Positions 26,310 through 63,590 of a DNA stretch of 64,000 nucleotides are shown in pieces. Source of the DNA: Diadema setosum (Eukaryota > Echinodermata > Echinoidea > Diadematoida > Diadematidae); contig NC_092704.1 in assembly GCF_964275005.1 (NCBI RefSeq), forward strand, positions 5,662,048 through 5,726,047, given 5' to 3'. The notes under the pieces were generated by a model. That model had not been told where the DNA came from, did no database searches, and was given only the letters and a program-made list of their open reading frames with translations. The position numbers and the translations under genes are program-made. Each line of letters starts with the position of its first letter. Position 1 is the first letter of the stretch.

Positions 26310-29300
26310 CTAGCTCTTCGGCTCCGTCTTCAGCTGACCTGTGAATGATTGGAACATGACCTTAACGTGCGTCATGTCACAGAACGGCTGCTTGCTTGTC
26401 TGCTTGCATCGACACATCAGGTACGACTTAGTCTTGTCCACCTCGAATCTCACTGGTTTGAATTCCGTTTTCTTGTGTGCACCATCACAGAAAGGCTGCA
26501 AAACAAAACACCACAAATTAATGAATACAGCACATCAATAGACTTGTCCCTTGCAACACATGGCAGCTTTGTCATTTTTGCAAACATAATATCATGCACC
26601 TCAACAGCTGTCTGGATTAAAATTACTTCTTTCACAGCAAAACATTTCAAAAACTTGTTCTTGAATGCAGCTTACCAATCCTTTGTTAGCTTGCTCTGAT
26701 ATTCAATGGTTATAGCATCTTTGCTATTGATTTCTCTCAAGTTTTAAGTGATCTCTCGCTTTTTGCCACACTACAGAATTCTACAAGTTTTTTTTTTTTT
26801 CCTCATGATAACCAGGAAATAGTTGATCAGCTTCTGATTTTGAATCTAATAAGACTAAGAGTTCATCTGCATGATACTAGCATAAATGTTCATCTTTGCA
26901 CAAAGCCAATTGCAGTTTTGAACTTCTTGAGATATTCTTTGATTTTATAAAACCAAAACAGAAGAGCTTCTCAATATTGTCAAAGATAATGACCATATGA
27001 CATAAATACTTACTTGTTTTTTGCTAAGTCCACACAGGCACCAGGAATACTTTTTCCCACTTTCTAGCTTCACAAGAGTAGGGATCATCTTTGCAACATA
27101 CGTTCCCTTAGGACCAACCTTTAGATGGCGAACCTAATCAGACACAGGAAGACAAAAAGGACACACAAAAAAACATTTTATAGTTTTCAGCATATGCTTC
27201 TCAAAACAAATTAAATGGCTTGTAATTTGCTTTCATCTTCATGAAATGAAGTCATGATTGAATGCTTAGAGTAAGACATTTGTCACCTATGTTTATGTAG
27301 GTTTAGAAGATTGGAGACCCATAGATCAGTTAGACGATCAAATGATGATAAATGGATCATAAAATGATGGAAGGATGTATATACAGTTACGCCAGGTCTT
27401 ACCTCTGGAACTGCATATTGAGACCTGTATTAAAGGACAAGTTCACCTTCATTAACATAAGGATTGAGAGAATGTAGCAATATTAGTACAACACATCATT
27501 GAAAGTTTGAGGAAAATCGGAAAATCCATTCAAAAGTTATGGATTTTGTAAGTTTTTGTGCAGTCACCGCTGGATGAGAAGACTACTGCAGTGTATGTCA
27601 CATGTGTACAACAATATAAGGGAAATATAAAGAGAATTTCACAAAATTTCATCTTTTGAAAAAAGTACACATTCCCTTGACTCGTTACTGACATATGTTA
27701 TGGGTAATATTATTTCCACTGCCTTTAGAAAGAGGCAAGTCAAGTGCTCTTTTATTATGCGAAAAAAATGAAAATATGTTGAATTTTCTTCACATTTTCT
27801 TTATACTGTTGTACTCATATGACATCATGAGCCTTAGTAGTCTCCTCATCCAGCGGTTCCAACACAAAAGTTTTAAAAATGCATAACTTTTGCATCGATT
27901 GTCCAATTTTCCTCAAACTTTCACTGATGTGTTCTACTAATATTGCTGCATTCTCTCAATCCTTATGTTAATGAAGGTGAACTTGTCCTTTAAGTCTGCC
28001 TTGATCAGGGGTCCGTTTCATGAAAGTCTTAGGAGAGACTTTCTCTCTCCTAAGTCATACTTAGGAGAGACTTTGCTAAAAACCATTTCATGAAAAAGCT
28101 ATCGCATAAAGCTATCGCATAAACTCAGACGTAGGAGAGACTTTTTCTAGAAACCATTTCATGAACAAAGCTAGCACATAAAGTCTCTCCTAACTTGGCA
28201 AAGCTATCACATAAATCTAGGAGTGGTCAGGAGCACTCCTAAGTTTATGTGATAGCTTTTTGAGAGAGCCATTGTATCAAACTTTTTTCTCATTTTGGAG
28301 TAATTGACCCTAAATTTGGCATGTGTGACCACTGTCAAAGGTAGATATGCAACATATCTCTTTCGTTGATATCGCATAATACGTTGTCATGAATGGCAAT
28401 GACAAATTTTCACAAAAACATACAAATTGTTGTGGATTTAACTACTGCCCTCAGTTTTAAAGCAATGCAGTTGAAATTCTGCATAGAATCAGATAAATGT
28501 AATATGTAGTTGTGCAAAACACTTTTTTCATGTGTGGTGTGAAAAAATCTGTTGCCATGGCAACAAGTTTTTATATACCAATCACACAAAGAAATATGTG
28601 AATTGACCTAACTTCCTTAAAGTTCTTTTAACATTTGACCAAAAATTTGGCACATGACCATTACAGTATGTAGATGTGCAAAACTAATCTTTGGTTGATG
28701 TTGAACAATCTGTTGCCATGGTAACAACATTTTTTCACTTAAAAGCATACAAAAATTGTGAATTCGCTAAATTTGTCAATATTTGTGCATATGACATGAA
28801 ATTTGGCACACATGTGACCGGCATAGTGCGTAGATGTGCAAACTTCATCTTTCGCCATTGTTGAACAATGTGTTGCCATGGTAACAGCAGACTTTGAATG
28901 AAAATCATACAAAAATATTGTGGATTCTGCTATCTCTCAGCTTTTGAGCATTTTGCTTGAAATTTGGTACATGTGACCACCATGATATGTATAGTTGTGC
29001 AAACTTCATCTTTCACAGATATAGAACATTGTGTTGCTATGGTAACAGCATTTTCAATGAATATAATAAAAAAAGTGTAGATTCAGTTTACTCCTTAAAT
29101 ATTTGAGCATTTTACTTGAAATCTGGCACATGAGACTGCTACAGTACATAGACTGATGTGCAAATTTCTTCTTTGTTCTTTTTCACACAATGTGTTGCCA
29201 TGGTAACAGATTATTTTGAATGAAAATCATTCAAAAATATTGTGGATTCAGCTAACTTCCTAAGCTTTTGAGCATTTGACTTGAAATTTGAAACATGTGA

Positions 29301-32300
29301 AAGTTATACTATGTACTTGTGTATATTCATCTTTCGTTAATACTGAACAGTGTGTTGCCATGGTAACATCATTTGTGAAAATCATAGGACTTTCCAGTTT
29401 ATTCATTTAATTTACTCAGTTTTTGAGCACTTGACTTGCAATACATATATGACACATGTGACAATTAACAGATTTTTTTGAATTAACAAAACACTTTATT
29501 CAATGTTGAACAATGCATTGCCATGGTACAGCTTTTTTCTTTTTTTAATAAAACCATATAAAGTTAGCGCTGGTTGAACGAACTCCCTCAGTTGGAGGTG
29601 GGAGTAAAAATCACAATGATACTTCTAATTTCAGCAGGTATTCTTTGTTTCGTACTTGGATTTGATTTCACTCATCAATTGCCACAATGGGAAAACATTT
29701 CATTGAAAGAGGCAGTGTAGGCCGACAATGATTCAATTACACTGTATTCAATTCATTCACTGCTATCAATTTCATACTCATTAATATCAATTCCTCACAA
29801 TTTAACTACATGTCATGTGACAGATTATGTAACTGCACAAACTATTTCATATATTTCATTCTAGTTGCCTGATTCATTAGAAAATCTGATCTTGAAAACA
29901 TTTCATTATTCAATGTCATCATAATCACAGCACGATTATCACAACCACATTGGTGATACTGGTAAGAGTCCTTGTGAAATTATTATCACTCACAGTATTT
30001 TCTGGTATTACATTCTACTTGATTTCTACATTATAAGCTATGCTTGTTTTTATCTTTCTAATCAAACAATAATTGCCCGCATAGACATAATTTCTAACTG
30101 GGTTACATAAATATTGCCTTCACATGCCTGGAAATAATAACAACTAGAAATGTCACTATGGCGACTGGTATGCCTCCGCCATGATGCATGATTCTCCTAA
30201 TAGGTCTAGATAGTGCATGTGGACAATGTGTGATTACATTTTCACAAAAATGGCTAAATATTAAAATGACAAGTTTGTCACAAATGTTCACCTGCCTTGA
30301 CCTAGGTTTAATTGGATGAATAGGAGAGAATGTATTTGGGATTTAAGGACTTTAACTTGACTTTGACCAATTCATACGTTTATGCATTGAGTAATTTCCA
30401 AGGTATGGAGAAAAAGTTCAATTTCTGTATTGAATAGTAAATTGTTACCATTTTCATCTGGCCTTTGATCCTAAAATTCATAAGATAATCCCTGTCAGGC
30501 AGAACATGCATAAATATGTAGAAAGTTTAAAAATAACTTGAGCCACTTCCGAGACATGGAGGAAAAACTTAGTTCAGCACTTTCACTTGATCTTTGACCT
30601 TTTGACCTTTGAGGCAAAAAAAAAAAAAGATCTTTCCAGAGAATCTCTATTAGGTTATACATGCATACACCAAGTGTAAAAAAATAATCCTGCTGGCATT
30701 GCATAAACATGAGGGAAATAGTAAAATTTTGAAGTGTTGCCCTTGACCTTTTGACTCCTGACCTTTGACCCCATGAACCCAAAATTGTCTAGATAATCAC
30801 TGCCAGTCAGTACATGTATGTTCCATGAAGATGCCTCGAACAATTTCCAAGGTATGGAGAAAAAAGTGAAGTTTTAATATTTCTAATTGACCTTTTGACC
30901 TTTGACCTTTGACCTCATGACCACAGACTTTCACCAGAGAATCTTAATTGGGTAACACATGAATACACTAAGTTTCCAGAAAATATCTTCAGGCATTGCA
31001 GAGATATGGTGGAAATAGTTAAATTTATGTATTTGACCTTGACCTTTTGACCTTTGACCTTGAGCATGTGCACCCAAAAGTTGATAGGCACAACTTCACC
31101 CCCTAATACACATACATGCCAAGTTTCATTAGGATACCTCAAAATGTTTTTTAGTTACGCTTGCCACAAAATTCATTACGGACGGACAGAAGGACGGACG
31201 GACGGACGGAAGAACGGACGGACGGACAGAAGGACAGACGGACGGACAACCCGAAAACATAATGCCTCCGGCACCACTTCGTGACGGAGGCATAAAAACA
31301 ATGCACTGCAATGTTCACTGATGTATTTATGTTTGGATCACTTATACATCGACAGATCTTTCATAATCATTTGTATTATTTTCATGGTTTATTAATCAAA
31401 TTATGAAAGCAGCTGAACTTCACACAATGCTATCATTGCAAATTTTGTAAGCATAAAATGATATGTGTTGCAATCCACCTTCTTTGCACTCTAAGGTTCC
31501 CTATATCAGAATATTAATTATGATATAAATACTAATTATAATGACCTTGTCTACTGCACAATAGCTTTTAATCATCAAAGATCAGAAATCAGACTCTTAT
31601 GTGCTGACTGATACAGAATTTGCATTTATCCATTTTAAAATGCTTTCTTACACTTTACAAGGCCTATAAATCTTTCTTTTTTTTTCAGAGTGCTTCAATT
31701 CACCCATTTGCTTTTCACTGAATCGTTTGCACGCTTAATTGTTCTGTTCTGTTTTGTATTGTAATGTTTTTGCTTTTTTTTTTGAAGGGGGATTTTTCTC
31801 ATTTCTGGTTTGGTTAATACATGTATATACCTGGCAAAGCACTTATGCCATCACCTATGGACTCGTCTATGACAAAACTCAGTGAAGTTCAGCAGTCAGA
31901 CTGCAATAGTCTGATTGCAGCTTCATATCTAACACTGCAATTGTGACTCTGTATCACAATATCAACAGAAAGTCACCAAACATGGATTTCTGGTTAAAGG
32001 GCTGGTAAAGTTTTGGTTGAGACCTGGTTTCAGATTGATAACATTTCTTCTCTTTTTTTTTTTTGGGGGGGGGGGGGAGGAGGGGTGATATAATAAGAAA
32101 CCTCTTATGAAATATGAAAGACCATTAATTCAAAGAAGATTTCAATGTTTATTTGATGAAAATTGGTTTTGAAATGTTTGAGATATCCAAAATAAAGGAA
32201 TCCTAATAAAAGGTGGAACCAACCTTTTACTAGAATCGCTTTGTTTTTCTCTGCTTTTGGATATCTCAACCATTTCAAAACTAATTTTCGTCAAATAAAC

Positions 32301-35300
32301 ATTGAATTCTTCTCTGAATTAATGTCTGTAGCACTTCAATAGTGGTTTCTTAGTATCTTGCAAAAAAAAAAAAGAAAAAAGGGCCAATCCTGTTTCTGAA
32401 AGAGCACACTCTCAGTTTTAAAATGATGTACAACTGAATTCAGATGGACTCTCCTATGTATTTGAATATTAGAAAGAAAGCACACACTCTGCAAAAGCAT
32501 AGCTAGCAAATAGGTTCTGAAGTATGCGGTCTATCTTACCTAGCTATGTTCTGTGCAATAAATGGGACAAAAACCAGGATATAAAACTCTAGAGCAACAA
32601 TAATGAAGGGATTATCAGATAAAGTTGAAATTGAACATGCCAATTATGTGAACACAAAATAGAAAAGCAGACAGAAAACAATCAAGATGTTGTTAGGTTC
32701 TGCAACATTACTCATGTCATTTGCAGCAAGTGCATAAAATTTGAAAATCTATCATGTGTGTAGGTCTAGCGACAATAGACCTATTCTTATTTTCCAAATG
32801 ATGTCCTGAAAGACATAATATTCGCACTCCATTTTAGGAATTTTTGTTGTGCAAGAAGCTTTTGTCATTAGGATCTATTACAAAATCACCATGACATCTG
32901 CATTCACGACTTTCATTACAGTGCTGCAGGTACATGTCAGATCCTCACATCTAATGCAGCCACCCCCCCCCCCCAAAAAAAAAATGTATACATTGTATAC
33001 CATTAATATTTGAAGGATTGAATCCACAGCGGTCAAAACAAACATATTCAACCTGTCTGCATCACCTTTGGCAAGCTCCATGCCTTGAGAATCTATATGA
33101 AAGAAAAAAGAAAGAAAGGACAAAAGAAATAGAATATGGAAAAATAAACAATACTGGTTACATACTGAAATTTTGTGACATGCAAATCACATCCCCTCTC
33201 CCTGACATTATACAGAGTGGTATGTGGGTGTACAGTTGAATGAATACACACACGACTACCACACATATCATTACACAGAGCTGCTTGTCAGCAATTTCAT
33301 ATAAAGTATATAAGCAACAGTTTAACAACATCAAGGAAAAAAAAAACAAAGAAAATCGTCTGGGTTGTCATACACAAGAATTAGTGTATCGGATTCTTCC
33401 TGATGAACAAAAAAAGGTGTGACACAGACTCAAAATGAAAATGTGATTGTGACTTAAAACACTCATCTGACATAATGTCATTCATTCATGTCAGTAGAGA
33501 CTTATTTGACTTTTTTTTTTTAGAAAGGATTGTAACTTATGTCAGGCAAGCTGGGAGTTCCAAAATAAACAGAAAGATAATTCAATGGGTTATGCAACAA
33601 GTCAGCTGCATTGCTATGTCAGTGCATTAATCAACTCTTGTGAGGCGTACTGAATTCCCAATTGTGGCTGATATAGACATAAACATTAAATCAACTCCCA
33701 ACTGGGGTTTATGAATGCACTAATTTCTTCATTTCTCGTGTGGAACAGTTCACATATAGAGGTGACATTGTTTGTCCACCAAGTCTACAATAATTCCTAA
33801 AATAAGAAAGACCGAATTACCTGTAACTGATATGTCATCAACAGAGGTTGCCTTTTTTCAACTGTTATTCAAGTTGTTTATTTTGTAAAATCTTTATACT
33901 TTCAAGTTTAATTTGAGAAATGCATACCTGTGTTCTGTCGTAGATAAGATGCTGCTATACAGTTCGTAGTCCAATTGCAGTCTGACTCTGACCTGGGTGA
34001 AGTTCAGCTGCAGTTGTCAGTCCCAAGGGCTTGGTGAGGTTCAGCTCTCTTCAGGCCTTTGGGTGTGCAAATATAAGAACAGTTCAATACCATACAAACA
34101 GAAACATTGGATGCACAAATGGGATAGTTGGAAAATATTTGAGATGAGTGTACATCTTTATTAAAACAAGCAATAACAACAAAATGTTCATTAATGAATA
34201 TCAATTTTGTAAGATATATTATGTGAACGACAAGTTGTAATTGCCAGTTTTCAAAGTTTGAATCACTATGTAATGAGCCCCTGTTAGCAAATTGTAAAAG
34301 TATGAAGTAATTTTAGTAATGAATGGGAGGGGGAATTGATAACAAGCATTCACTTTATTCAGTTGGCAGCAGAATTATTAAACCCCCTTGCATTATGGAC
34401 ACTATGGCAAAATAAATAACATTAAAATTACTAAATCATATACAAAATGGTGAACAGATAGTTTATGACAAATGCCTACCTGATCAATAATCTTTGATTT
34501 GCATATACATTGTAGTTAGAAACTTTGATCATTCATGCATGAAGAGATAAGGTCAAATGAGTACATTATGGTCATTTCATACCTTTCTGTGATCACTGAA
34601 GCATGACGTGTTATGGTCTGATGATAATGATAAATTTCTTTTGTTTTTATGGAATTTTAAATAGTATCTTGCCATTCTATACATAACTCTTAGCATTTCA
34701 TTGGGTTATATTCATTTTGACATGACTTAAACTTTGAATTATTAATATCATGGCTAAACCTCTGTACAAACTCTATGGTGGCAACTTTCACTAGAAATTA
34801 GTTCATTTAAATATTTTTGTACAATGAAAAATGCCAATTCAAATATTAAGAATCCTACATCAAATTCCATCATATTTTGTCACCTATCAAAACATTGAGT
34901 GAAACCATATTCAACGAAGCATTTCAGTGATCACTGAAAGGACTGAAAATGACCATAAATGTGCCTACTGGACCATATCTCTTTATACATAAATGATCAA
35001 AGTTTGTAACTATATGCAAATCAAAGGCTACTGATCTGTTTTTTACTTGTAGCAAACTATCTGATCACCACTTGTATGATTTAGAAATAATCTTAGTTAT
35101 AATGTAATTCATTATGCCAGAGTGTCCAACATGCAAGAGAGGGGTTGACTTATTTTGCTGCCAACTGTAGATGATCAAGATAACATGATTTCTCAACTTG
35201 CTTCAATAGCTAAAAATAATCATTTAACACACCAAATGAAGATGGTGGAATATCCATGACACTGTCACTTGACTTTTCCATTTGCATCTTGCCCCCAGTC

Positions 35301-38300
35301 CTTAACTCTGAAGTGGATGAAGTTCACATGTTGTCTAGTCCTTGGCTGGCTGTTTGGAGTTTATTCAATATACAAGAACAGTTAACATCTTACAAACAAA
35401 ACAATAGTGCAGGACATGGGACATTAGAAAGTATGTTAGAGATGGGTGCTTTGCCTTTGCTATAACAAGCTATAGCAATCAAATTGAAAAGCCCTACCAT
35501 TGATTTTGAAAGACTGAATTCACTAGTATCTACTGATCCATAAGCTGTAAATAGGACTTTTCACAGTTTAAAATGATTAGCTTAGTATGTCGAATATTCT
35601 TGTTTCAAACATTGTAAGAGCATGAGGTTGTTTTGATACTAGAAAAGGGAGAGGGTAAATAAGCAATCATAGTAGGGCCTACAATATTAAGATAACGTGA
35701 CTGCTAAAGTTTGTTTCAGGAGCTTGATACATGTAGACATGCAGGTACCCCCCCCCCCCCCCCTTCCATGAATTATCTCTTTTCAATTGGATCAGTATGT
35801 AATATTCTACAGATAGTGAAATAAAAAAAAATGCAAAAAACAGTTGTTTCTAGAAGGGTCACTATTCACTGGATAAGAATGTTTGTTTTCAATTACCAAG
35901 ATGGACATTACAGCAAACATTGTTTTCAATATTTCCTGTCTAACACTATTCAACTAAAAATCCAGAGACAATTTGATGTCCAAATGTAAATAATGTTGCA
36001 ATTGTAGTATTTGAAAATATACAGATATGTTGTCTGCTAAAATAGTATTATAAGCTAAAATACTTGCATTCTGTTGAAGGTGACCACGCTGGTAGATAAG
36101 TCTCGACGAAGTTCAGTAGCAGTCTAGCTGTGGAGAAGATGGAAGTTCAGCAGTTTGGTTCTGTGTTCAGTGAAGTTCAGCAACTGACTCTGGGCTTTAT
36201 GAGATGCAGAAGTCTGATTGTAGCAGTCTGACTGATGTTCCATATCTAACACTATAATTAAAAATGTTAATACAAAATAGAAAGTGTGTTTTCAAACTGT
36301 TGTTTGATTATACAAGATTTTACACACAATATCTAGAATCTGCATGAAATTTGAAATCAGTTCACATGTTTTTGCAGTTTAAATATATAAAGGACCTTAT
36401 ATTATTATTTTTGGGGGGGATGATTAAAAGACATACTACTAGCATTTGAGTTGTCTCAATTCAACATGTGTAAGCCTATAGTTTAGGGTATTATGACTTC
36501 TTGAGGTTCTAGATCTTGTCGATAGGCATCCACGTTGCAAGGTCTACATCTACCTAAGATCTGGTAGGACCAGCTGTACTGTGGCTTCACATTCGGGTTG
36601 ATCACAGTTACAGCCTGAGATGCAGCCACAGTCTGACTCTGATCATCAACTGTTGTCATGTCATCATCATCAATTAAATTGCTAAAAGAAGTTGTGTAAG
36701 CGGTACTAGCATCGGAGTATGGACCTATAGAATCTACTAACTGCCTAGATAGATAGCACTATTTAGAAGACCTATTAACTTCCTTACTGATGAGTGATAG
36801 GCCTACTTATGTTAATGATAATATGTTTAAGAATACCAAGGCTAAGGGTCTAGTCTGGTTATACTTTTGGTATACACCAGTTGGTTAAGTAGTATCTAGG
36901 TCAGTAGGTGCTACTCAGGATCACTATACCACTGGATTCTAGATCTATAGACACCTGGTAATATAACAGTAGAATTCTAGAGGTTCCATGCCAATGAATT
37001 TAGGTAAACATCATTCTCTATCTTATTGTGACACATGCATTGCGATTACAGTGCTGTATGCAGTTAGAATTGTGGAAGATAGCTTTCAAGTCTGAACCAA
37101 AATCTGAACCATGGTTTCCAATTCATATTCTGTGTAGACCTGGATCTACGTACTACTACTAGGCCCTACTACTACTACTAGATCTAGTTAGTCTAACCAC
37201 TGTCGGACTCTCCAGATAGTACTACCTGCCCTATTCACCCCATGGCACTCCCTGTTAGTTGTACAAAGTGCCAATGAATTTAGGTAAACATCATTCTCTA
37301 TCTTATTGTGACACATGCATTGCGATTACAGTGCTGTATGCACTTAGAATTGTGGAAGATAGCTTTCAAGTCTGAACCAAAATCTGAACCATGGTTTCCA
37401 ATTCATATTCTGTGTAGACCTGGATCTACGTACTACTACTAGGCCCTACTACTACTACTAGATCTAGTTAGTCTAACCACTGTCGGACTCTTCAGATAGT
37501 ACTACCTGCCCTATTCACCCCAGGGCACTCCCTGTTAGTTGTACAAAGTGCTTCGCGTTCGGGCTGGTCGCTGTTATTATAACCCCTAACCCCTAGTATT
37601 TTTATAGTTTTTGTTGTAGACCTATAGTAACGTTAGACAGTAACATTAGGACTTGTAAACGTAACAATGACACAGGTAACTTACAGCTGGTTCTCTGTAG
37701 TGTAAATGGTAACGCTATAAGTTCACGTTAGGGCCTAAAAAAAACATTAGGCTTAGGCTAGGCCCATAATTCTGTTGGACAAAATAACCTAGATTTTCTA
37801 GACTGAAAAAAAAAAACAGATTTTTCCTGTCGATTTGACACAAAACGGAAAATTTGTATCACTTCTGAATACTATCCACACAGCTAGTGACAGTGTAATT
37901 ATTCAGTGTTAGACACGTCTTCAAAAATATAGGCCTAGGCCTAATAATATTAATAATAAAATGCAGACCAATTCTTATGAAATTTCCGGTTTCTTCTTCG
38001 ATCCCTTCACTATTCAGGCCTTCAGTTACCTGCAATTCACCCATACATGAACAAATCGGGCAATTTCTCTCATGAAATATCTGCACGCTAAATATATCAT
38101 AAAAATCAACCCACAAACATTTCACTATTACTTGTAGAAGTTGTAGACCCTACCATGCTAAGTAACAAACTACTAGTACCTAACTCAGCTGGCCATTTGG
38201 TCATTCAAACAAACGGCGATGTGCGTACGTGGGACTATTGTGATAACGCTACTACCGGTAAGATTAGATCTACATCTCGCTAGCCCTTTGGAGAACTGTA

Positions 38301-40903
38301 GAAGATTCGAACAAAAATATATCCAAATAATATCACATTATGAATCCACATGCATTACTTTTCAATTGTAGACAGCTTTAAATATACTCACTAATAGAAA
38401 TATGTACTGGTAGCGGTGTAGAATGCAACTTAGCCTCTAGGATCCTGCCTCCGTCGTAGATCTGTTGCCTCTGCGCTGTATACACTGTGTGTATACGTGC
38501 TATGTCTATGTAGCGAGTGCTCAACGCATGTAACACAATAGGGAGAAAAAGTTAATAATATGCTAATGATATGTTAATTAGTATTACCCTCGAACATGAC
38601 GATTGAAAAAATTAAAGTCTCTCATAGCTTAGGAGAGACTTCGTGAAATGGTTTTTACTTCTCTGCGAAAGTCTCTCCTAGCTTAGGAGCGGCTTGGCCA
38701 TTTTAAGATTTATGTGATAGCTTTTATGTGATAGCTTCATGAAACGGACCCCGGGAGTGCCTGTTTTGACAACCGGATTATTAAGTATTAGAAGTTTTTC
38801 TAATCATTACAGTGATCATGCAGCCGAATTTGACATTTGAGTGGAATCCCTATTCCCGCCAATTCTTTTTACGGCAGTCAAACAGTGGCAGTGTAGTCAT
38901 GGTAGCGAAACAAGTTGTTTTATTTGTTGCATGCAAGGCAAAGGTCCACAACATTAAAAGGGGAAGCTATATTGTTGCCCTCTTTATTAAACAATAACAT
39001 ATTCTGTACATCCTTAGCAACCTTAGTATTGAGGTGATACCTTTGTGATTGCACAACCTTGAGCCACAGATCAGTCTGTATTTGGTCGTCGGGATATGTT
39101 CCGTGGAGACTGTGTCTGGCTTCATGGAATCCCCTCTTGCTACTCTGCGCTGCTACTAATACTAACTACTATTATAAAACATCTAATTAGACTGTAGCTA
39201 TCTGATTGGTCAATTGCACATCATGTGACATTTAGTTAAAAGTTCCATCGCACGCTGTGGCTGTCAGCCGTGCAATTTTGTTTGAGCAAAAATGGATAGC
39301 ACATTGCAGACGGACATCACCCATTTTCATTGACTCCCATGTTAAACTCACGACTGACTCAAAGTTTTTGTTCCATCGCATGGCTCTGATGTCACAATAA
39401 ACAAACATTTGCCGCGTGCACTCAACAATTCAAGTGAGCTTTAATACAAGCACATATTTTTTGTCACTAATTTTTGTAAACAACTTCAACCGATAGGCTT
39501 CCTTCGCGTACGGCTTTGTACATGCCGTGACTGTGTGAGTGCTGTGACTGCGCAGCTACTCATTCGTCTTTCACAGAAAATGATTGCCATTTCTGTGCTA
39601 AATTAAAGAATCTGTGTGGACCACATCTGTTGACGTTCGAGGTGTTGTATAAAACAAATAGTATACAAATAATGAATGTCTATGAGTGCAATAGACAGAA
39701 TATTTCATGAGATGAAAGATGAAATGATCCATTCAACAAGGCGCAGCTGAGTTGAATGGATCAAACATTTCATCTTTCCTTGAATGAAATATTCTGTCCA
39801 TTGCACGAATGAAAAATATTTATTATTTGTTTTATATAACACCTAAAATAGATCCTTGTCATTTAATGTTTTAGTAATTTAGAAACAAGAGAGAATCTTA
39901 GATCATGAGAGTGCTTACTGAGCGCTTTATGCTAGCTATAGCGCGCTGTCGCATACACACACTGCAAACACAAGCGTTTTACATGTGTAATGTGTCGGGC
40001 TCTCAGCAAGCGTGCAATTGCCAATGGAGCAAATGGTATGGATCCAAAATTACACGGTAAATGGAGCCACAATTGCATGGATGATGACATCATAGTAAAA
40101 TGGGCCAAATGATCAATGTCAAACAACCAGTCAAATGACAAGGATCTCTTCAGGCGTTATATTTAATGTAAGTAGATTTCTATGTATGTATGTTCTTTAC
40201 TCGTGCAATGGAACAAGATTTCGCACTCGGTGAACGAAAGATGAGGCGCACTAATCAATTCGGCTTTGCCTCGCTCGTTGAATAGAGCGCCTCTGCTCTA
40301 TCTTTCACCTCATGCGAAATCTTGTACCATCGCACTCGTGATGCGTGACCAAATTCACTATTTTGTATAATATAACACTAGCGCTAGGCCACAGAACAAG
40401 TGCATCTGTGATATAAACTACAAGTAAAGTTTACATAGGCTACCACGATCACGATGATACCAACAGCTCACACTCTTCACAGTCCACTCACACGTCCACA
40501 CACACCACGCAACCTACCCACCCACATTAAATTTAGCTCAGTAGTCAGTTCAAGCTAACCCCCGCCCAGCCGGCGGCCGCCCCTGGCTCGGGGTGCTACC
40601 TTGGGCCCTGTACGGTCGCAACTAACCCACTGATCTTCGTCAGGACTGTGTAGATATTCCCTGAAATCAGTGAGCTAGCTAGCCGAGCCGGACTAGCGGC
40701 CCCAACACGTGTCATCGGGTAGCCGGCCGCGCGCGCCGGGGATCACCCGGAGCGGTTAGGCCGCACATGCACAGCTTCCATATCAAAATTGCAAAATTGT
40801 GTTTTGAGTTTGTACTTACAGGAATATTTGTCCATTGCTGGAGCCCTGCAATACGCGATAATCCAGCAATTGTGCTGGTTCCCGATACAAACATGCGTGA
40901 CAT
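26310..40903 (-). CDS. CISD3: CISD3, mitochondrial double-CDGSH iron-sulphur protein (3 exons, complete)
   Basis: CISD3 is a soluble mitochondrial-matrix NEET protein that binds two [2Fe-2S] clusters and takes part in iron and redox handling. Exons in transcript order: 40903-40820 (28 codons), 27133-27014 (40), 26495-26310 (61 plus stop). All junctions are phase 0 with GTAAGT donors, giving 129 residues (human 127). Exon 1 encodes a presequence beginning MSRMFVSGTSTIAGLSRIAG, with Arg and hydroxyl residues and no acid, as expected for matrix import. The first CDGSH motif is CLCGLSKKQPFCDGAH (60-75; ligands C60, C62, C71, H75). The second is CRCKQTSKQPFCDMTH (96-111; C96, C98, C107, H111), where the usual Gly after CD is Met. 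All eight cluster ligands are present. Intron 1 is 13.7 kb and packed with repeats. The gene is head to head with SPAG6. Exon 1 is assigned by phase, donor and targeting character, and is slightly less certain than exons 2-3. Confidence 0.9.
27430..27993. mobile_element. Foldback MITE with TTAA target sites
   Basis: A 564-bp element starting TTAAAGGACAAGTTCACC and ending with its complement GGTGAACTTGTCCTTTAA. The arms continue as inverted copies for more than 100 bp (CATTAACATAAGGATTGAGA and beyond). The TTAA sites fit Kolobok/piggyBac-like non-autonomous elements. Only 17 bp separate it from the large element at 28011. Confidence 0.8.
28300..29560 (+). repeat. Tandem satellite of about 161 bp with an X-box palindrome in most units
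   Basis: Seven to eight diverged units. The landmark palindrome lies at 28551, 28712, 28872, 29033, 29194 and 29354, spaced 160-161 bp. Degenerate versions are near 28383 and 29517. The copy at 28551-28564 is the perfect 14-mer GTTGCCATGGCAAC; others read GTTGCCATGGTAAC or GTTGCTATGGTAAC. Other shared blocks are AAATTTGGCACATGTGACC, GATGTGCAAACTTCATCTTT and AATCATACAAAAATATTGTG. No coding frame. Confidence 0.85.
30143..31297 (+). mobile_element. TGACCT-rich repeat element, copy A (CISD3 intron 1)
   Basis: Starts at ACTAGAAATGTC..GGCGACTGGTATGCCTCCGCC and ends with a (GGAC)n run, then ACCCGAAAACATAATGCC and GGAGGCATAAA. The tips are short inverted matches (TATGCCTCCGCCA / TGACGGAGGCATA). The interior is a string of diverged units of about 150-170 bp, each ending in TGACCTTTTGACCTTTGACC-like runs. 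Non-coding. Two more copies lie in PSMB3 introns, in the same orientation. Confidence 0.8.
31993..32400. mobile_element. TTAA-type foldback MITE (family A), nested in CISD3 intron 1
   Basis: Begins TTAAAGGGCTGGTAAAG. The arms around GATGAAAATTGGTTTTGAAA and its complement match the copies at 7060, 60145 and 61521. Contains a G-rich run near 32068. Confidence 0.7.
34360..35168. mobile_element. Foldback MITE with CAGTTGGCAGCA ends
   Basis: An 809-bp element. Its outer 12 bp are CAGTTGGCAGCA / TGCTGCCAACTG, and the arms stay recognisably inverted for about 300 bp (ATATGCAAATCAAAG, GTGATCACTGAA and others). No ORF. Confidence 0.75.
36991..37550. repeat. Two-copy tandem duplication, 280-bp unit
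   Basis: 36991-37270 and 37271-37550 are head-to-tail copies of exactly 280 bp, differing at about three positions by eye. Each contains a (TAC)n stretch and GATCTAG words. The few differences indicate a recent event. Confidence 0.9.
39639..39844. repeat. Foldback repeat with AGGTGTTRTATAAAAC ends
   Basis: AGGTGTTGTATAAAACAAAT on the left is matched in complement by ATTTGTTTTATATAACACCT on the right. GACAGAATATTTCAT and CATTTCATCTTTC blocks continue the palindrome to a centre near 39740. Confidence 0.7.
40199..40340. repeat. Inverted repeat around CAAGATTTCGCA
   Basis: ACTCGTGCAATGGAACAAGA is followed after about 100 bp by the complement-like TCTTGTACCATCGCACTCGT. GATGAGGCGC / GCGCCTC and GAAAGAT / ATCTTTC lie between. 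Probably a small foldback element. Confidence 0.6.
40560..40760. promoter_or_regulatory. GC- and CpG-rich patch beside CISD3 exon 1
   Basis: Locally the most GC-rich sequence in the window (CCGGCGGCCGCC, GGCCGCGCGCGCCGGGG). It starts about 60 bp inside CISD3 intron 1, next to the shared promoter. It may be the downstream part of a CpG-rich promoter or an inserted GC-rich repeat. Confidence 0.4.
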
Positions 40904-47300: not shown

Positions 47301-50300
47301 TTGGTTCCAATATTTGATATTTGAGAGGGAAAAAAAGAATGTGATGAAGAGTTTGTATCTGCTCGTTTTTTCTTCTGTCATGACAGCGCCAAGTCTTCTC
47401 AGCCCTGAGCCAGATCTCAAAGCACTCAGTGGACCTGGCTGAGATGGTGGTCGAGGCTGAGATCTTCCCTGCCGTCCTCACCTGCCTCAAGGACCAGGAC
47501 GAGTATGTGCGCAAGAACGTGGCCACGCTGATCCGCGAGATCGCCAAGCACACCCCGGAGCTGTCTCAGCTGATCGTCAACGCTGGCGGGGTGGCAGCCG
47601 TCGTCGACTACGTTGGAGAGTCCAAGGGCAACGTCAGGCTTCCCGGTGTCATGATGCTGGGGTACGTCGCTGCACACTCTGAGAACCTTGCCATGGCGGT
47701 CATCGTATCCAAGGTGAGTAACTCTTTCCACTTAAATTCCAGGAAGGTCAATCCATTGGCATGGTCGTGTAGTGATTTCTAAGGACATTGGATGTTCATT
47801 GATGACGAAATGAAGTATATAAAGATATTCATTTTTGGATCAGAATTTTTACTCTATTGTAATGAAATTTAGTTATAACCATGTTGTTTATAATGGAAGC
47901 ATCCTGTACCAGAGAGGACTGCCATGCAAATTTTTATGTCTCCTTTCTTTCACATGGTGTTCAGTTGATCAAAAGAAGACTGTGTAATGTTATGCCTCAT
48001 GTGTTAGATTTAAAAGTTAGTGGAAAAGTGAGCAAAGAAAATGGGATTCCATCGGGATTCGAACCCGAGACCTCCGGATTGCTAGACCGGTGCTCTACCG
48101 ACTGAGCTATAGAAAGCCCTAGTGCAGTGTTCGTCCCAGAAACCCTTAATTCTCAATGCTCGGGTGGTCAGAAGCTATAGCAGTGTGTTTGTGTGTGACA
48201 CACACGCACACACTTGAACCTGGAATAAACCCGAAGGATAATTCAACTTGGGGATAAATGCGAGGGATCACCGAAGTGATGCAGCTTTTTGAGTTTGTAA
48301 CAAATAAAGACAGAATAAACTGACCAGAAAGAATATAAATTATTAGTGGAAAAGTGAGCAAAGAAAATGGGATTCCATCGGGATTCGAACCCGAGACCTC
48401 CGGATTGCTAGACCGGTGCTCTACCGACTGAGCTATAGAAAGCCCTAGTGCAGTGTTCGTCCCAGAAACCCTTGATTCTCAATGCTCGGGTGGTCAGAAG
48501 CTATAGCAGTGTGTTTGTGTGTGACACACACGCACACACTTGAACCTGGAATAAACCCGAAGGATAATTCAACTTGGGGATAAATGCGAGGGATCACCGA
48601 AGTGATGCAGCTTTTTGAGTTTGTAACAAATAAAGACAGAATAAACTGACCAGAAAGAATATAAATTATTAGTGGAAAAGTGAGCAAAGATTTAGTGGAA
48701 AAGTGAGCAAAGATTTAAAAGTTGTCAGCTTCAGTGTTGATTCATCGTTGCATCACCTGCTGTCAATTTCCTTCCCCAGGGGGTGACCCAGCTGGCCATC
48801 ACACTGGCTGAGGAGCCCGAAGACCACATCCAGGCTGCTGCTGCCTGGGCCCTGGGCCAGATCGGGCGCCACACTCCGGAGCATGCCAAGGCCGTTGCTG
48901 TGGCCAACGTGCTGCCCAGGCTCCTACAGTGCTACATCCGGGCAGATGCCTCAGAGGACCTTCAAACTAAGGTACAGGCAACATCTCCACAAATCCATTA
49001 TGTTTGTTTGGTTGCTTGCTTGTTTGTTTGTTTGTTTGTTTGTTTCATTCCCATCTGAGAAGATGGCTGGATAGCTGATATTCAACTGCAATAGCTGGTC
49101 TTCCAAGGGGTCTAGTTGGATACGACACTCCTTATCCTGAACAGTCTTATTACAGTTGCAGCAAGCAACAATTTGATCCCTGTTCTCAATACATGTACAT
49201 GTTCTTCAAACTTGTCAGGATTAACTGAATTGCGACATATTATTTTGTGTCCATTAATAATTGCTCTATATTTCTCTATGAACATGCATAGACAGTACTT
49301 TTGACAGAGTAGGTGAAAAGGAGCAATGCTCCTCTCTAAGATGTACTAAGTTGTATTGTAAACATTGACAATCTTTCAAACATCAAATCAACATGTATGG
49401 TGTCTAAACCCAAGCTAATATTAAGAAAGGAATGTGCATAGATGATAATAATAAATCATTTTTTATGAAGTGCATATCACACAAAATAAATTTAATTTCT
49501 CTATGCACATTGAAGGAGGGAAAACATAAAAATAAAGGAAGATAGACATATGGGAAAGAGGAGGGGATAAACCAAATGACCTTAGTGCACTGCAAGCTAT
49601 GCATTCATAAAGAGTGTACCCATATCCGTTCTCTCCCTTCAGGCCAAGCGTGCCCTCAAGAACATCCTCCAAAAGTGCATCCACCTGCCGGCCCTGGAGC
49701 CCCTCCTCCACGACGCCCCGCCCAACATCCTCAAGCATGTGGTGGGCCAGTTCAGCAAGGTGCTGCCCCACGACCCCAACGCCCGCCGCCTCTTCGTCAC
49801 CAGCGGGGGGCTGAAGAAGGTGCAGGAGATCAAGGCGGAGCCCGGCAGCGCCCTCCACGAGTACATCAACACCATCAACAATTGCTTTCCCGAGGAGATC
49901 GTCAGGTGAGACTCACTACCCTACCGCTTGTTTACTGTACTGTCATCCAGTGGATGCAGGGAATTGTTCATAAAGGGAATGTCCACTGTGTGATTGCCAA
50001 TCCAAGGTACTCACAGAGACATAAGTTACAAGCATAAACAAAAAATGGCTGCAAGGGTTTGTTATTGTTGTTGTGGTTTGGTTATTGGTGGGGTTTTTTT
50101 TTTCTGTTCAAAGACACATGTCTGGTAATGCACAGCACTCCTTTTCATAGACTTCAAGGTTCAAACAATTCAAAAGACTCGGGCAGCTAAAATATATCGA
50201 GTAAACTCTCTTGTTTGCATAACAATTCTTCACAATGGAGTAAAATGGGCTATGATGTGATGCCAAAGCTACATTAGAATGTGATTGTAAAGACATCATT

Positions 50301-57900: not shown

Positions 57901-60900
57901 TATATTTTTTTTGTTTCACTATCACATAAAATCACAAAATTTACAATTGTTTAGCAGTCATTATGGAAAAAGGAAAAAAACAAAGCAAAACATAAAGTGA
58001 CAAGAACCTTTCATTAAAAAAACATTTCAATACCATACATAAAAAGAAGCACCATGTTTGAGAACCCCCTGCCAAATAGAGCAAATAGGGAAGAGCATCA
58101 ATCACATGTTACACAGTTTACACTACACAATCAAGTTTTACTCCTACTCTTTATTATATGTACCAACAACAACAACAACAAAAAGAAAAAAAAGACACTC
58201 CTCTATGCTTTATCATCTTTGGTCATGTCTAAATTGAACTGGTTACAGAAAAAAACTAGAAATGTCGCTTTGGCGACTGGTATGCCTCCGCCATAATGCA
58301 TGATTTTCCCAATAGGTATAGATAGTACATGTGGACACTGTGTGATTACATTTTCACAAAATTGGCAAAATATTGGAATGACAAGTTTGTCACAAATGTG
58401 TTGAATGTTCACCTTCCTTGACCTAGGTTTAATTGGATGAATAAGAGAGCATGTACAGTATCTAGGGATTTAAGGACTTTAACTTGACTTTGACCCATTC
58501 ATACATTTAGGCATTGAGTAATTTTCAAGGTACAGGTGATGTGGAGAAAAAGTGAAATTTCTGAATTGAATAGTAAATTGTTACCATTTTCATCTGGCCC
58601 TTGACCCTAAAATTCATAAGATAATTACTTTCAGGTAGAACATGCATAATATGTAAGTACTAAGTTTCAAGGTAACTTGAGCCACTTCCGAGATATGGAG
58701 GAAAAAGTTAGTTCAGCACTTTCACTTGATCTTTGACCTTTTGACCTTTGAGGCAAAAAGAGGAAAAAAAAAAAAACTTTCCAGAGAATTTCTATTAGGT
58801 TACACATGCATACACCAAGCGTAAAAAAATAACCCTGCTGGCATTGCATAAATATGAGGGTAATAGTAAAATTTTGAAGTGTTGCACTTGACCTTTGACC
58901 CCTAACCTTTGACCCCATGAACCCTACATTCTCTAGATAATCACTTCCAGTCAGTACATGTATATACTATGTTCCATGAAGATACCTTGAACAATTTTCC
59001 AAGGTACGGAGAAAAAAAAAAGAAGTTTTAATATTTTTACTTGACCTTTTGACCTTTGAACTTTGACCTCATGACCCAAACTTTCACCAGAGAATCTTAA
59101 TTGGGTAATACATGTATACACTAAGTTTCAAGAAAATGTCTTCAGGCATTCAATAGATATGGTGGAAATAGTGAAATTTTATGTATTTGACCCTGACCTT
59201 TTGACCTTTGACCTTTGACCTCACGACCCAAACTTTCACCAGAGAATCTTAATTGGGTAATACATGTATACACTAAGTTTCAAGAAAATCTCTTCAGGCA
59301 TTCAATAGATATGGTGGAAATAGTGAAATTTTATGTATTTGACCTTGACCTTTTGACCTTTGACCTTGAGCATGTGCACCCAAAAGTTGATAGGCACAAC
59401 TTCACCCCCTAATACACATACATGCCAAGTTTCATTAGGATACCTCAACAGGTTTCGATAGTTACCTTGTCCACAAAATTCATTACGGACGGACGGAAGG
59501 ACGGACGGACGGACGGACGGACAACCCGAAAACATAATGCCTCCGGCACCACTTCGTGGCGGAGGCATAAAAAAAAACAACCAAAAAAAAAAAAAACCAG
59601 ACAGGATCCACAATTCGTAATGCGAACTCAGATGTTCACTTCCTCTCAGATATTTTTGAAAGTTTGAGCACATGAATCCCTCTCCCATGGTGGCATCAGA
59701 CAATATACTTACTAAATCAGGAACCCAAAGAGATTCACACATGCCGTACAGCTGCTCCGTACACGTTCCACCCACGACAAAGTCGTCGGTGAACATGGGG
59801 CAGCCTATTAGGTCGAGGTTACAGATGAAAGGTTTCAGGGTCTTTGGGTCAAGGCCCGCGATCACAGGCTCGATGAAGTACGGTCCGAATCTTTGGAAGT
59901 AAGGAAAGAGGCAGAGATGGTTTTGTGAATGCTGCGATCACACAAATTTGGCATTACTAGTGGACAGAGCATATGCAAACATTCTATATATTCTGGTTTT
60001 ATCTACTTAATATTTACTAATGTGCTTTTTGTCTACTGTTGATGCTCTTATTCTTAACAACCATAAATGAGGAAGAGAGAAAATTACAGCTCAAAGGGCA
60101 AGAAGAGGAGTATGAATAGCATTAAAACAGTGAAAATTTGAATGTTACAGGGTTGGTAAAGTATTGGTTGAGGTGAGGATTAAGCCTTTAACTTTTTGCG
60201 AGATACTTAGAAGCCACATTACAAAATGCCAAAGAACATACAATTCTAAGAGGAATTCAAAGTTTGTTTGATGAAAATCGGTTTTGAAATGGCTGAGATA
60301 TCCAAAAACATAGTTACAACAAAGCAATCCTAATAAAAGGTGGGTACCATCTTTTATTGGGATCACTTTGTTTTGGATATCTCAGCCATTTCAAAATCTA
60401 TTTTCATCAAATAAATTTTGAATTCCTTTGAGAATTATATGCTATCTTATATTTTATAAGAGGTTTCTCATTACCTCAAAAAATTATCATAAAAAAAAAC
60501 ACTGGAAACCTGAAGCACCATCTCAACCAAATCTGTACCATTTCTTTAACATGAATCTGACGTGCTGATCTACAACTTTATGGCAATGTGAATGCTGCTG
60601 TACATAACTAAATTTTTAAGGTGACAGTAAACTTTCAACTATCTCCAATAAGAAGTGTGATGATAGCATGTGTGTGATTACAGTTTGAAGGAAAACATGA
60701 AGAAAATATTTCTTTCAAAAATCACAAGTGGATTCTGTGAAATTTCATAGATAACAAAAAGCAGGAGCTGCACCTACACTGTGTAACATCACATTATGAG
60801 GGGACGTAGATTCTTGAAAGACGAACTGACTCAAAGAATTAATGGCTTGTAAAATTTAATGATATTCAAACATAAAACATCTGACTCCAACAGACACTAG

Positions 60901-62313: not shown

Positions 62314-63590
62314 ACTAGAAATGTCGCTATGGCGACTGATGCCTCCGCCATAATGCATGATTCTCCCAATAGGTGTATAGTGCAATGTCTTCACAATGAG
62401 TGATGACAGTTTCACATAACTGGCAAAATATTGAAATGACAGGTTTGTCAGAAATATCTTCAGTGTTCACTTTCCTTGAACTAGGTTTGCTATAATTGTC
62501 TATTAAAGGGTGTATGTATTTGGGGAATTGAGGATTTTTACTTGACTTTGGACTGACCCTTTTATAAGTTTGTGCATTTCTTAATTTTCAAGGTATGAAG
62601 AAAGAGTGTAATTACAGTAAAAAATAGATTTTTTTTTTTTTTTTGCATTTAAACATGGCCTTGACCCTTAACCTTTGACCTTCTAGCAGGAAATTTCCAA
62701 GAGAATCTCCATTAGGTAATACATGTATATTAAGTTTTAAAAATAACAATGCAAGCATTGCATATACTAGTGAGGGAAATAGTAAAATTTTGAGGAGTTG
62801 ACCTTGACCTTTGACCCCCTGACTATTGACCCATGACCCCTTATTCCCTAGATAATCCCTGCCAGTCAGTACATGCGTATGTACCAAGTTCCATGAAGAT
62901 ACATTGAACCATTTGCGAGAAAAATAAAATTGTAACATTTTCACCTAACCTTTGACCTAATGACATGAAACTCTCTCTGGAGAATCTTTACGCAGTAGTA
63001 CATGTCTACACCAAGTTTCAAGAAAATACCTCCGGGCATTGCATGGATATGGGGGAAATAGCAACATTTTTAGCATTTGACCTTGACCTTTTGACCTTTG
63101 ACCTCTTGCCAATGTCACTAAAATCTACTCAACTAATTGCTCCATCATACATCATCCTTAGACCAAGTTTGGTGAAAGCTGCTTCCTCCAGTTTTGAGTT
63201 ATCATGTAAACAGATAAATTTTAGGATTTGACCTTGATCTTTGACCTTTGACCTCTGTCCAATTTCACTCAAAAATTAATCAGATAATTGTCCTACCATA
63301 CATCATCCTCAGACAAAGTTTGGTGAAATTTGCTTGATCCAGTCTTGAGTTATCGCGTAAACAGATACAATTTCATGATTTGACCTTGACCTTTGGCCTT
63401 TGGCCGATTTCTGCCAAAGTCTTACCAAGTAATTGCCTCATCATACTTTATACTTGGACCAAGTTTGGTAAAATTCCAGTCAATATTACTGAAGTTATCG
63501 CGTAAACGAATGCGGACAGACATACGTAAGGACGGACGGACAACCCGAAAACATAATGCCTCCGGCACCACTTCCTGGCGGAGGAATAAA
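62314..63590 (+). mobile_element. TGACCT-rich repeat element, copy C (upstream of first visible PSMB3 exon)
   Basis: Starts ACTAGAAATGTCGCTATGGC and ends ACCCGAAAACATAATGCC..CTGGCGGAGGAATAAA. Its middle has diverged from copies A and B and uses CCAAGTTTGGTGAAA and GTTATCGCGTAAAC modules between the TGACCTTTGACC runs. A short GGACGGAC run remains near the right end. Confidence 0.8.

Follow-up and report, generated by a model that had tools for sequence, protein, structure and literature searches.

X-box-like palindromes in a mobile tandem array carried by unrelated transposons of Diadema setosum

The stretch of Diadema setosum DNA analysed here (the window, 64,000 nt of contig C20, in a searched genome of 912.7 Mb on 102 contigs) holds a tandem array in which most units carry a 14-base palindrome resembling the X-box, the site of RFX factors. 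The array lies inside a DNA transposon, and exons of SPAG6 and two tRNA genes follow further along the window. Tandem Repeats Finder gave a 161-bp period across the array, and a unit profile divided it into eight units of ~161 bp, the first and last with decayed palindromes. The six units between them contain GTTGCCATGGCAAC or a variant one or two bases off, at steps of 161, 160, 161, 161, and 160 bp (Table 1). Scanning the window for the palindrome with up to three mismatches gave 13 matches compared with 3.1 expected, and this number was reached by none of 100 shuffles. The observation in an earlier, sequence-only reading of this DNA, that palindromes recur every 160-161 bp and that one of them (28551-28564) is perfect, is thereby borne out. 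The same reading described the array as a satellite; the 161-bp tandem period is real, but the array belongs to a larger transposon and is not a free satellite.

Homology to other carrier copies starts at 28008, and an inverted copy of 28008-28024 is present at 38736-38752. The array is therefore internal to an element of ~10.7 kb, which has perfect 17-bp terminal inverted repeats (TIRs) in the window copy. When the genome was queried with the array, 40 loci were scored out of 1,105 first-look candidates, and all or most of the array was present at every one of them. Nineteen, including the window copy, showed 95-100% identity (subfamily A) and 21 showed 85-87% (subfamily B). The genome search proposed in the sequence-only reading thus returned other arrays, both at these loci and in three further stretches described below (L070, L075, and L076). 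A free neutral satellite is ruled out, since the larger element and the array are copied as one block. The 23-base left end has 84 exact matches genome-wide, and the right end was located in 11 of the 14 fetched stretches of other carrier copies. Terminal inverted repeats and a 3-bp duplication are traits of PIF/Harbinger transposons. Flanks matching a 3-bp CNN duplication, mostly CNG, were observed at 7 of 10 distinct insertions (window included; L007 and L008, which have the same flanks, counted once; L048, whose two flanks are reverse complements of each other, set aside), whereas three insertions, the window copy among them (CAG versus CGG), have no matching flanks. Because two of the three duplication letters can be read from the element ends, the free evidence amounts to one base per insertion, and support for a duplication is moderate. 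The ends and the putative duplication point to PIF/Harbinger. One short transposase peptide had no match among the carrier copies at the loci examined, and the carrier is non-autonomous at best. A DDE_Tnp_4 fragment on contig C15, ~12 kb from an exact left end, was considered and left unassigned to the carrier; no right TIR was present in the 1.8 kb read.

Several rearrangements were noted in and around carrier copies. A 280-bp stretch is duplicated in tandem within the window element at about 99% identity (36989-37551), and a self-inverse repeat of ~560 bp (79%) lies directly to the left of the element (27430-27993). L007 and L008, on contigs C20 and C14, have identical flanks in the letters printed and represent one insertion, later duplicated with its surroundings. 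At L028/L048 (C11, ~37.6 Mb), the left flank reappears as its reverse complement beyond a right-end repeat, resembling an inverted duplication or an assembly fold.

The array also occurs outside this carrier. A 7.5-kb repeat with two copies 95-97% alike (within L070-L075) carries the array module; a search showed no terminal inverted repeats for it, and its similarity to the window element is confined to the array and the tail that follows (28551-29619), plus one 27-base match. The L070 array, picked through the flanks of one unit, has eight units, six with GTTGCCATGGTAAC, one with GTTGCCATGGTTAC, and one decayed, and L071, a near-copy of L070, has the exact palindrome in 4 of 8 units. Beyond the end of the 7.5-kb repeat, an array met by chance in L075 (3368-4464) consists of ~146-bp units, and 7 of its 8 palindromes are GTTGCCATGGTAAC. 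Two unit types alternate in this array, with the X-box in common and otherwise different. Another context is L076 (C1:7113500-7114400). Here, a coding fragment FFEIS-GFPQVVGVVDGTHV, presumably of Harbinger type, is interrupted by a putative intron of ~0.75 kb with GT...AG ends, and this intron holds three array units, two of them with GTTGCCATGGTAAC. In another Harbinger-type gene (L069), the same junction is uninterrupted. The L076 stretch has five copies with 98-100% identity over all 901 bases, and it is assigned to Harbinger because DDE_Tnp_4 matches overlap all five. The genome has DDE_Tnp_4 transposases (at least 153 matches), as expected for PIF/Harbinger, and one of them carries the array in its putative intron; to our knowledge, tandem X-box arrays are not a known feature of Harbinger elements. 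The array is a mobile module of ~161-bp units (~146-bp elsewhere), most with one X-box, that rides unrelated transposons.

A tail after the last unit is common to the window, L025, L070, and L076 and ends in TAGTT in two of these four sequences. Among 36 partial matches reaching the tail, 19 stop at one base, right after ...TAGTT, which suggests that the module has its own 3' end, perhaps of Helitron or HINE type. An ATCAC...GTGAT inverted repeat lies near the end of the tail and is degraded in the window copy. The tail is absent from the L075 array in the stretch examined. No inverted 11-mer pair (at most one mismatch) was found between the tail and up to 410 upstream bases in six of six stretches from four context kinds, with L076 contributing only 126 upstream bases and L075 having no shared tail, and folding of the tail was not significant (z -0.69 for the window, -0.95 for L070). 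Genome-wide, 21 of 49 Helitron_like_N matches lie inside open frames of more than 3,000 aa (e.g., C5:23861745), suggesting recent rolling-circle activity. Together with the common tail, its recurrent end, and the DDE_Tnp_4 matches, these long frames and the subterminal position of the array, 0.3 to 1.6 kb from the left end, favour an explanation in which the palindrome is bound by an element-encoded protein or a Helitron- or Harbinger-type mobilisation protein and aids movement of the module or its carrier, its likeness to an X-box being secondary. We regard this as rather unlikely. The palindrome is kept across carriers expected to use different enzymes, namely the TIR element, the 7.5-kb repeat, and the transposase intron, and the favoured form GTTGCCATGGTAAC departs from perfect dyad symmetry, yet fits the RFX consensus.

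The genome contains 9,238 exact sites of GTTGCCATGGTAAC and 2,076 of GTTGCCATGGCAAC, compared with 4 sites of a control palindrome, CTTGGCATGCCAAG, which has the same letters without the CpG. Among the matches listed, 92 of the first 100 GTTGCCATGGTAAC sites (C1, first 8.7 Mb) fall in 22 clusters, and 61 of the 70 steps inside these clusters measure 120-175 bp, most commonly 161 and 146. The perfect form has several sources, because 21 of 24 C1 loci with the perfect 14-mer, compared by blastn, fall outside the window array family and only three within it (listed sites in the carrier copies L011 and L029 were left out). Seven of the 21 are linked as a repeat family with a lone palindrome (one of them loosely), two form another array pair, and 12 are partnerless. 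Weak profile matches suggest that distant relatives are among these loci. L001, L003, L049, L051, L054, and L067 make up a dispersed repeat family, separate from the window array family and 75-95% alike, with a single perfect X-box in each stretch read.

Unit alignments were used to compare the palindrome with its surroundings. In 27 profile-found units from four loci, mean pairwise identity was 0.92 in the palindrome and 0.67 in the 146 other columns, and among 14-column windows of the unit, the best conserved one coincides exactly with the palindrome. The profile was built from 24 mostly palindrome-located units, so that this comparison is not free of selection; this point favours a neutral passenger repeat whose conservation is an artefact of unit finding or of mutation bias. 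The excess persists, however, in 57 related strings picked by flanking anchors instead of the palindrome (0.90 in the palindrome versus 0.71 in the rest), and after thinning of these strings (0.85 versus 0.61, n=16; 0.82 versus 0.54, n=9). Within single arrays, the corresponding values are 0.98 versus 0.71 for L070 (seven units, without the decayed eighth) and 0.96 versus 0.67 for L075 (eight units). No other part of the unit is as constrained as the palindrome, which the sequence-only reading had described as better conserved than its surroundings.

We then compared 30 copies of the window array (19 of subfamily A, 11 of subfamily B; L021 was left out of A for the shared and private counts). 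A change private to one copy mostly arose after insertion, whereas shared or fixed changes arose in the lineages that spawned copies. Fixed differences between the subfamilies affect 1 of 84 palindrome columns and 88 of 873 flank columns; with CpG columns excluded, the counts are 1 of 82 and 79 of 847 (Fisher p = 0.007). When sets of six flank windows were drawn at random, at most one fixed difference was obtained in 0.065% of 20,000 draws. The majority form of the unit 5 palindrome is GTTGCTATGGTAAC in subfamily A and GTTGCCATGGTAAC in subfamily B. No shared change was found in palindromes, compared with 44 (A) and 1 (B) in flanks, while private changes number 4/84 (A) and 2/84 (B) in palindromes and 56/884 (A) and 21/873 (B) in flanks. 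The ratio of shared-or-fixed to private changes is 1:6 in palindromes and 133:77 in flanks (Fisher p = 0.013). A neutral passenger would account for the similar private changes after insertion (6/168 palindrome versus 77/1,757 flank column tests) and for the equal diversity within subfamily B (0.0043 versus 0.0048); the excess between subfamilies of one array, which survives removal of CpG columns, makes such a passenger highly improbable. The pattern is suggestive, if not final, of palindromes that are held while the element spreads and drift after landing, and such a pattern argues for use by the element and not by the host at each site. Among the roles proposed in the sequence-only reading, service to the host element fits best, given the constraint in copy-spawning lineages and the presence of the module in several unrelated elements; a genome-wide sink for RFX is also conceivable.

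The consensus of RFX sites is GTNRCC-N(0-3)-RGYAAC. It fits 5 of the 6 window palindromes, and 10 exon matches place RFX DNA-binding domains at about six genomic loci. A T at position 11, found in 22 of 26 units, is allowed by this consensus and spoils a perfect hairpin. X-boxes are described as imperfect inverted repeats in the part of PMC5838959 consulted, and the 14-mer GTTGCCATGGYAAC is likewise one; the perfect 14-mer is printed in the consulted parts of two fly cilia papers (PMC3414849, PMC4168999). RFX binding of the array 14-mers is predicted from these matches, and it is possible that other factors, or a mobilisation protein, act on them.

Alternatively, the palindrome could be kept as a DNA structure, as a hairpin or as a promoter of breaks and recombination by which units multiply and move. 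The fold of a 36-base stretch containing the perfect copy is better than that of most shuffles (z -2.3; 6 of 200 equally good), and some bivalve repeats have palindromes at or near junctions, as described in PMC5139131. The T at position 11 spoils the dyad in most units, and constraint persists between subfamilies in which the array is copied as a block, making this alternative improbable.

The array is copied en bloc, resides in more than one carrier, and has amplified its palindrome, which is under constraint in copy-spawning lineages but not after insertion. Most likely, a host factor, probably RFX, exerts its action on the array, and this would be why transposons carry it. In its specific form, the explanation that we favour, and to which we assign about even chances, is that the 14-mers are recognised by a protein of the host, most probably an RFX factor. 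The bound array would turn the carrier on, or open its chromatin, where RFX is active, e.g., in ciliated cells or flagellate germ cells, and elements with intact arrays would leave more copies. Action as a transposase enhancer would fit, because the array lies in the putative intron of a Harbinger transposase gene. A broader proposal is more tentative: unrelated transposons may share the RFX-site module as a portable enhancer tied to the ciliary or flagellar programme, and the ~11,300 exact GTTGCCATGGYAAC sites might form a dispersed RFX-binding layer that rewires ciliary genes or titrates RFX. We consider this conceivable but doubtful.

Several results weigh against RFX-driven activation of the carrier. 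Unlike in complete PIF/Harbinger elements, no transposase-like frame was recognised by eye in the window element or in the listed parts of two subfamily B copies (L043 and L044), and the two-exon peptide of L076 alone (47 residues) matched no Pfam family. The perfect palindrome GTTGCCATGGCAAC occurs in only 1 of the 6 window units, and at 883 sites in the genome, position 11 is A or G, bases that the RFX consensus does not favour. A runner-up box around AAATTTGGCACATGTGAC, in part a model edge, is conserved too (0.86). The full RFX consensus is kept in 34 of the 57 anchor-picked strings; after thinning, it is seen in 8 of 16 and in 3 of 9, so its loss has been common among older units. Few events underlie the selection tests, with 7 palindrome changes altogether, and the copies compared are not all independent, L007 and L008 being a single duplicated insertion.

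Pearl/HINE elements (oyster Cg_HINE, CvA, and DTC84) and the BIV160/Cg170 satellites, in which core repeats reside on mobile elements (consulted parts of PMC7492417 and PMC5139131; HINE structure is described in that of PMC4067079), are the nearest known kinds. According to the same parts of PMC7492417 and PMC5139131, they likewise have short repeat arrays (~160 bp in pearl) that are borne by mobile elements and scattered over the genome, a ~60-bp segment past the last repeat with a 3' palindrome, and divergent monomers with two conserved segments. In contrast, the array described here is carried by a TIR element and also occurs in the putative intron of a transposase gene, and the 11-15-bp subterminal inverted repeats of HINE were not found around these arrays. 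Further HINE traits are a 3' stem-loop after the last repeat, insertion at TT, and a microsatellite on the left side. No RFX-like box is mentioned for HINE, pearl, or BIV160 in those parts of PMC7492417 and PMC5139131, the comparison being made by description, monomer letters aside. Functional X-boxes lie mostly near transcription starts, as stated in the consulted part of PMC5838959, whereas the boxes described here are tandem, transposon-borne, and present in thousands. The interaction of the D sequence in the adeno-associated virus terminal repeat with RFX1/RFX3 (consulted part of PMC5760533) may serve as a precedent for selfish DNA using RFX. In both cases, a parasite genome has a sequence in its terminal region that binds RFX or, here, is predicted to do so; the virus differs in that it is not a tandem array in cellular transposons. 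Among the literature matches listed (titles and abstract openings, with most subscription journals outside), there was no description of tandem RFX sites in satellites or transposons.

Satellite-like arrays in transposons are already known, and the persistence of their short conserved boxes is an open question. Reading the box as the site of a known factor, constrained during spread only, would make this question directly accessible to binding and reporter assays. The predicted link to RFX is the attractive part of the finding: if RFX does bind, transposons would have seeded thousands of ready sites for a cilia regulator, a route by which ciliary and sperm expression might be rewired.

The neighbourhood of the window copy bears on a further alternative, that this copy was co-opted by the host as an RFX enhancer of SPAG6 or another neighbour. 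Exon-like frames of SPAG6 lie at 44.2-49.9 kb on the + strand, and we take the first and last of them to belong to this gene; a hand-joined peptide from two exon pieces at 45.6-46.7 kb matches sperm-associated antigen 6 (E = 1.5e-113). The sequence-only reading had placed SPAG6 as a divergent neighbour ~12 kb away. The gene is present, but it runs on the + strand; its first recognised exon is near 44.2 kb, some 15 kb away from the array, and the divergent orientation was not borne out. Co-option would agree with the presence of SPAG6 in the window and with the palindromes of the window copy, which match the subfamily majority in 84/84 columns. However, only 7/884 flank columns differ from that majority, so the copy is young and its intact palindromes are expected by default, with no need for host selection. 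It is one of at least 40 similar dispersed copies, and together with the distance to the first exon this renders co-option very unlikely. No support was obtained for a ciliary enhancer of SPAG6 as the main role of the array.

Table 1. Positions of the array, its carrier element, and tRNA genes in the window
Feature	Position	Strand	Basis
Dispersed DNA transposon carrying the array, subfamily A copy	28008-38752	+	homology start, inverted ends
Left terminal inverted repeat, GGGGTCCGTTTCATGAA	28008-28024	+	
Right terminal inverted repeat, inverse of 28008-28024	38736-38752	-	
Tandem array, eight ~161-bp units	28311-29594	+	unit profile
Unit 1	28311-28468		profile match
Unit 2	28473-28639		profile match
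Unit 3	28643-28795		profile match
Unit 4	28798-28955		profile match
Unit 5	28958-29115		profile match
Unit 6	29117-29280		profile match
Unit 7	29282-29435		profile match
Unit 8	29448-29594		profile match
Unit 1 palindrome, decayed, with inserted bases	28383-28403	+	
Unit 2 X-box, perfect palindrome GTTGCCATGGCAAC	28551-28564	+	
Unit 3 X-box, GTTGCCATGGTAAC	28712-28725	+	
Unit 4 X-box, GTTGCCATGGTAAC	28872-28885	+	
Unit 5 X-box variant, GTTGCTATGGTAAC	29033-29046	+	
Unit 6 X-box, GTTGCCATGGTAAC	29194-29207	+	
Unit 7 X-box, GTTGCCATGGTAAC	29354-29367	+	
Unit 8 palindrome, decayed	29517-29531	+	
3' tail of the array module, common to arrays in other contexts	29562-29634	+	
tRNA-Ala gene	48043-48117	-	
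tRNA-Ala gene	48369-48443	-	

Two other features of the window were noted. The SPAG6 region contains a 326-bp tandem duplication (99%; 48017-48690) with the two tRNA-Ala genes. Repeats with TTTGACCT runs lie at 31032-31248, 59042-59522, and 63064-63402, the first two near (ACGG)n stretches, a combination that presumably resembles HINE-type elements.

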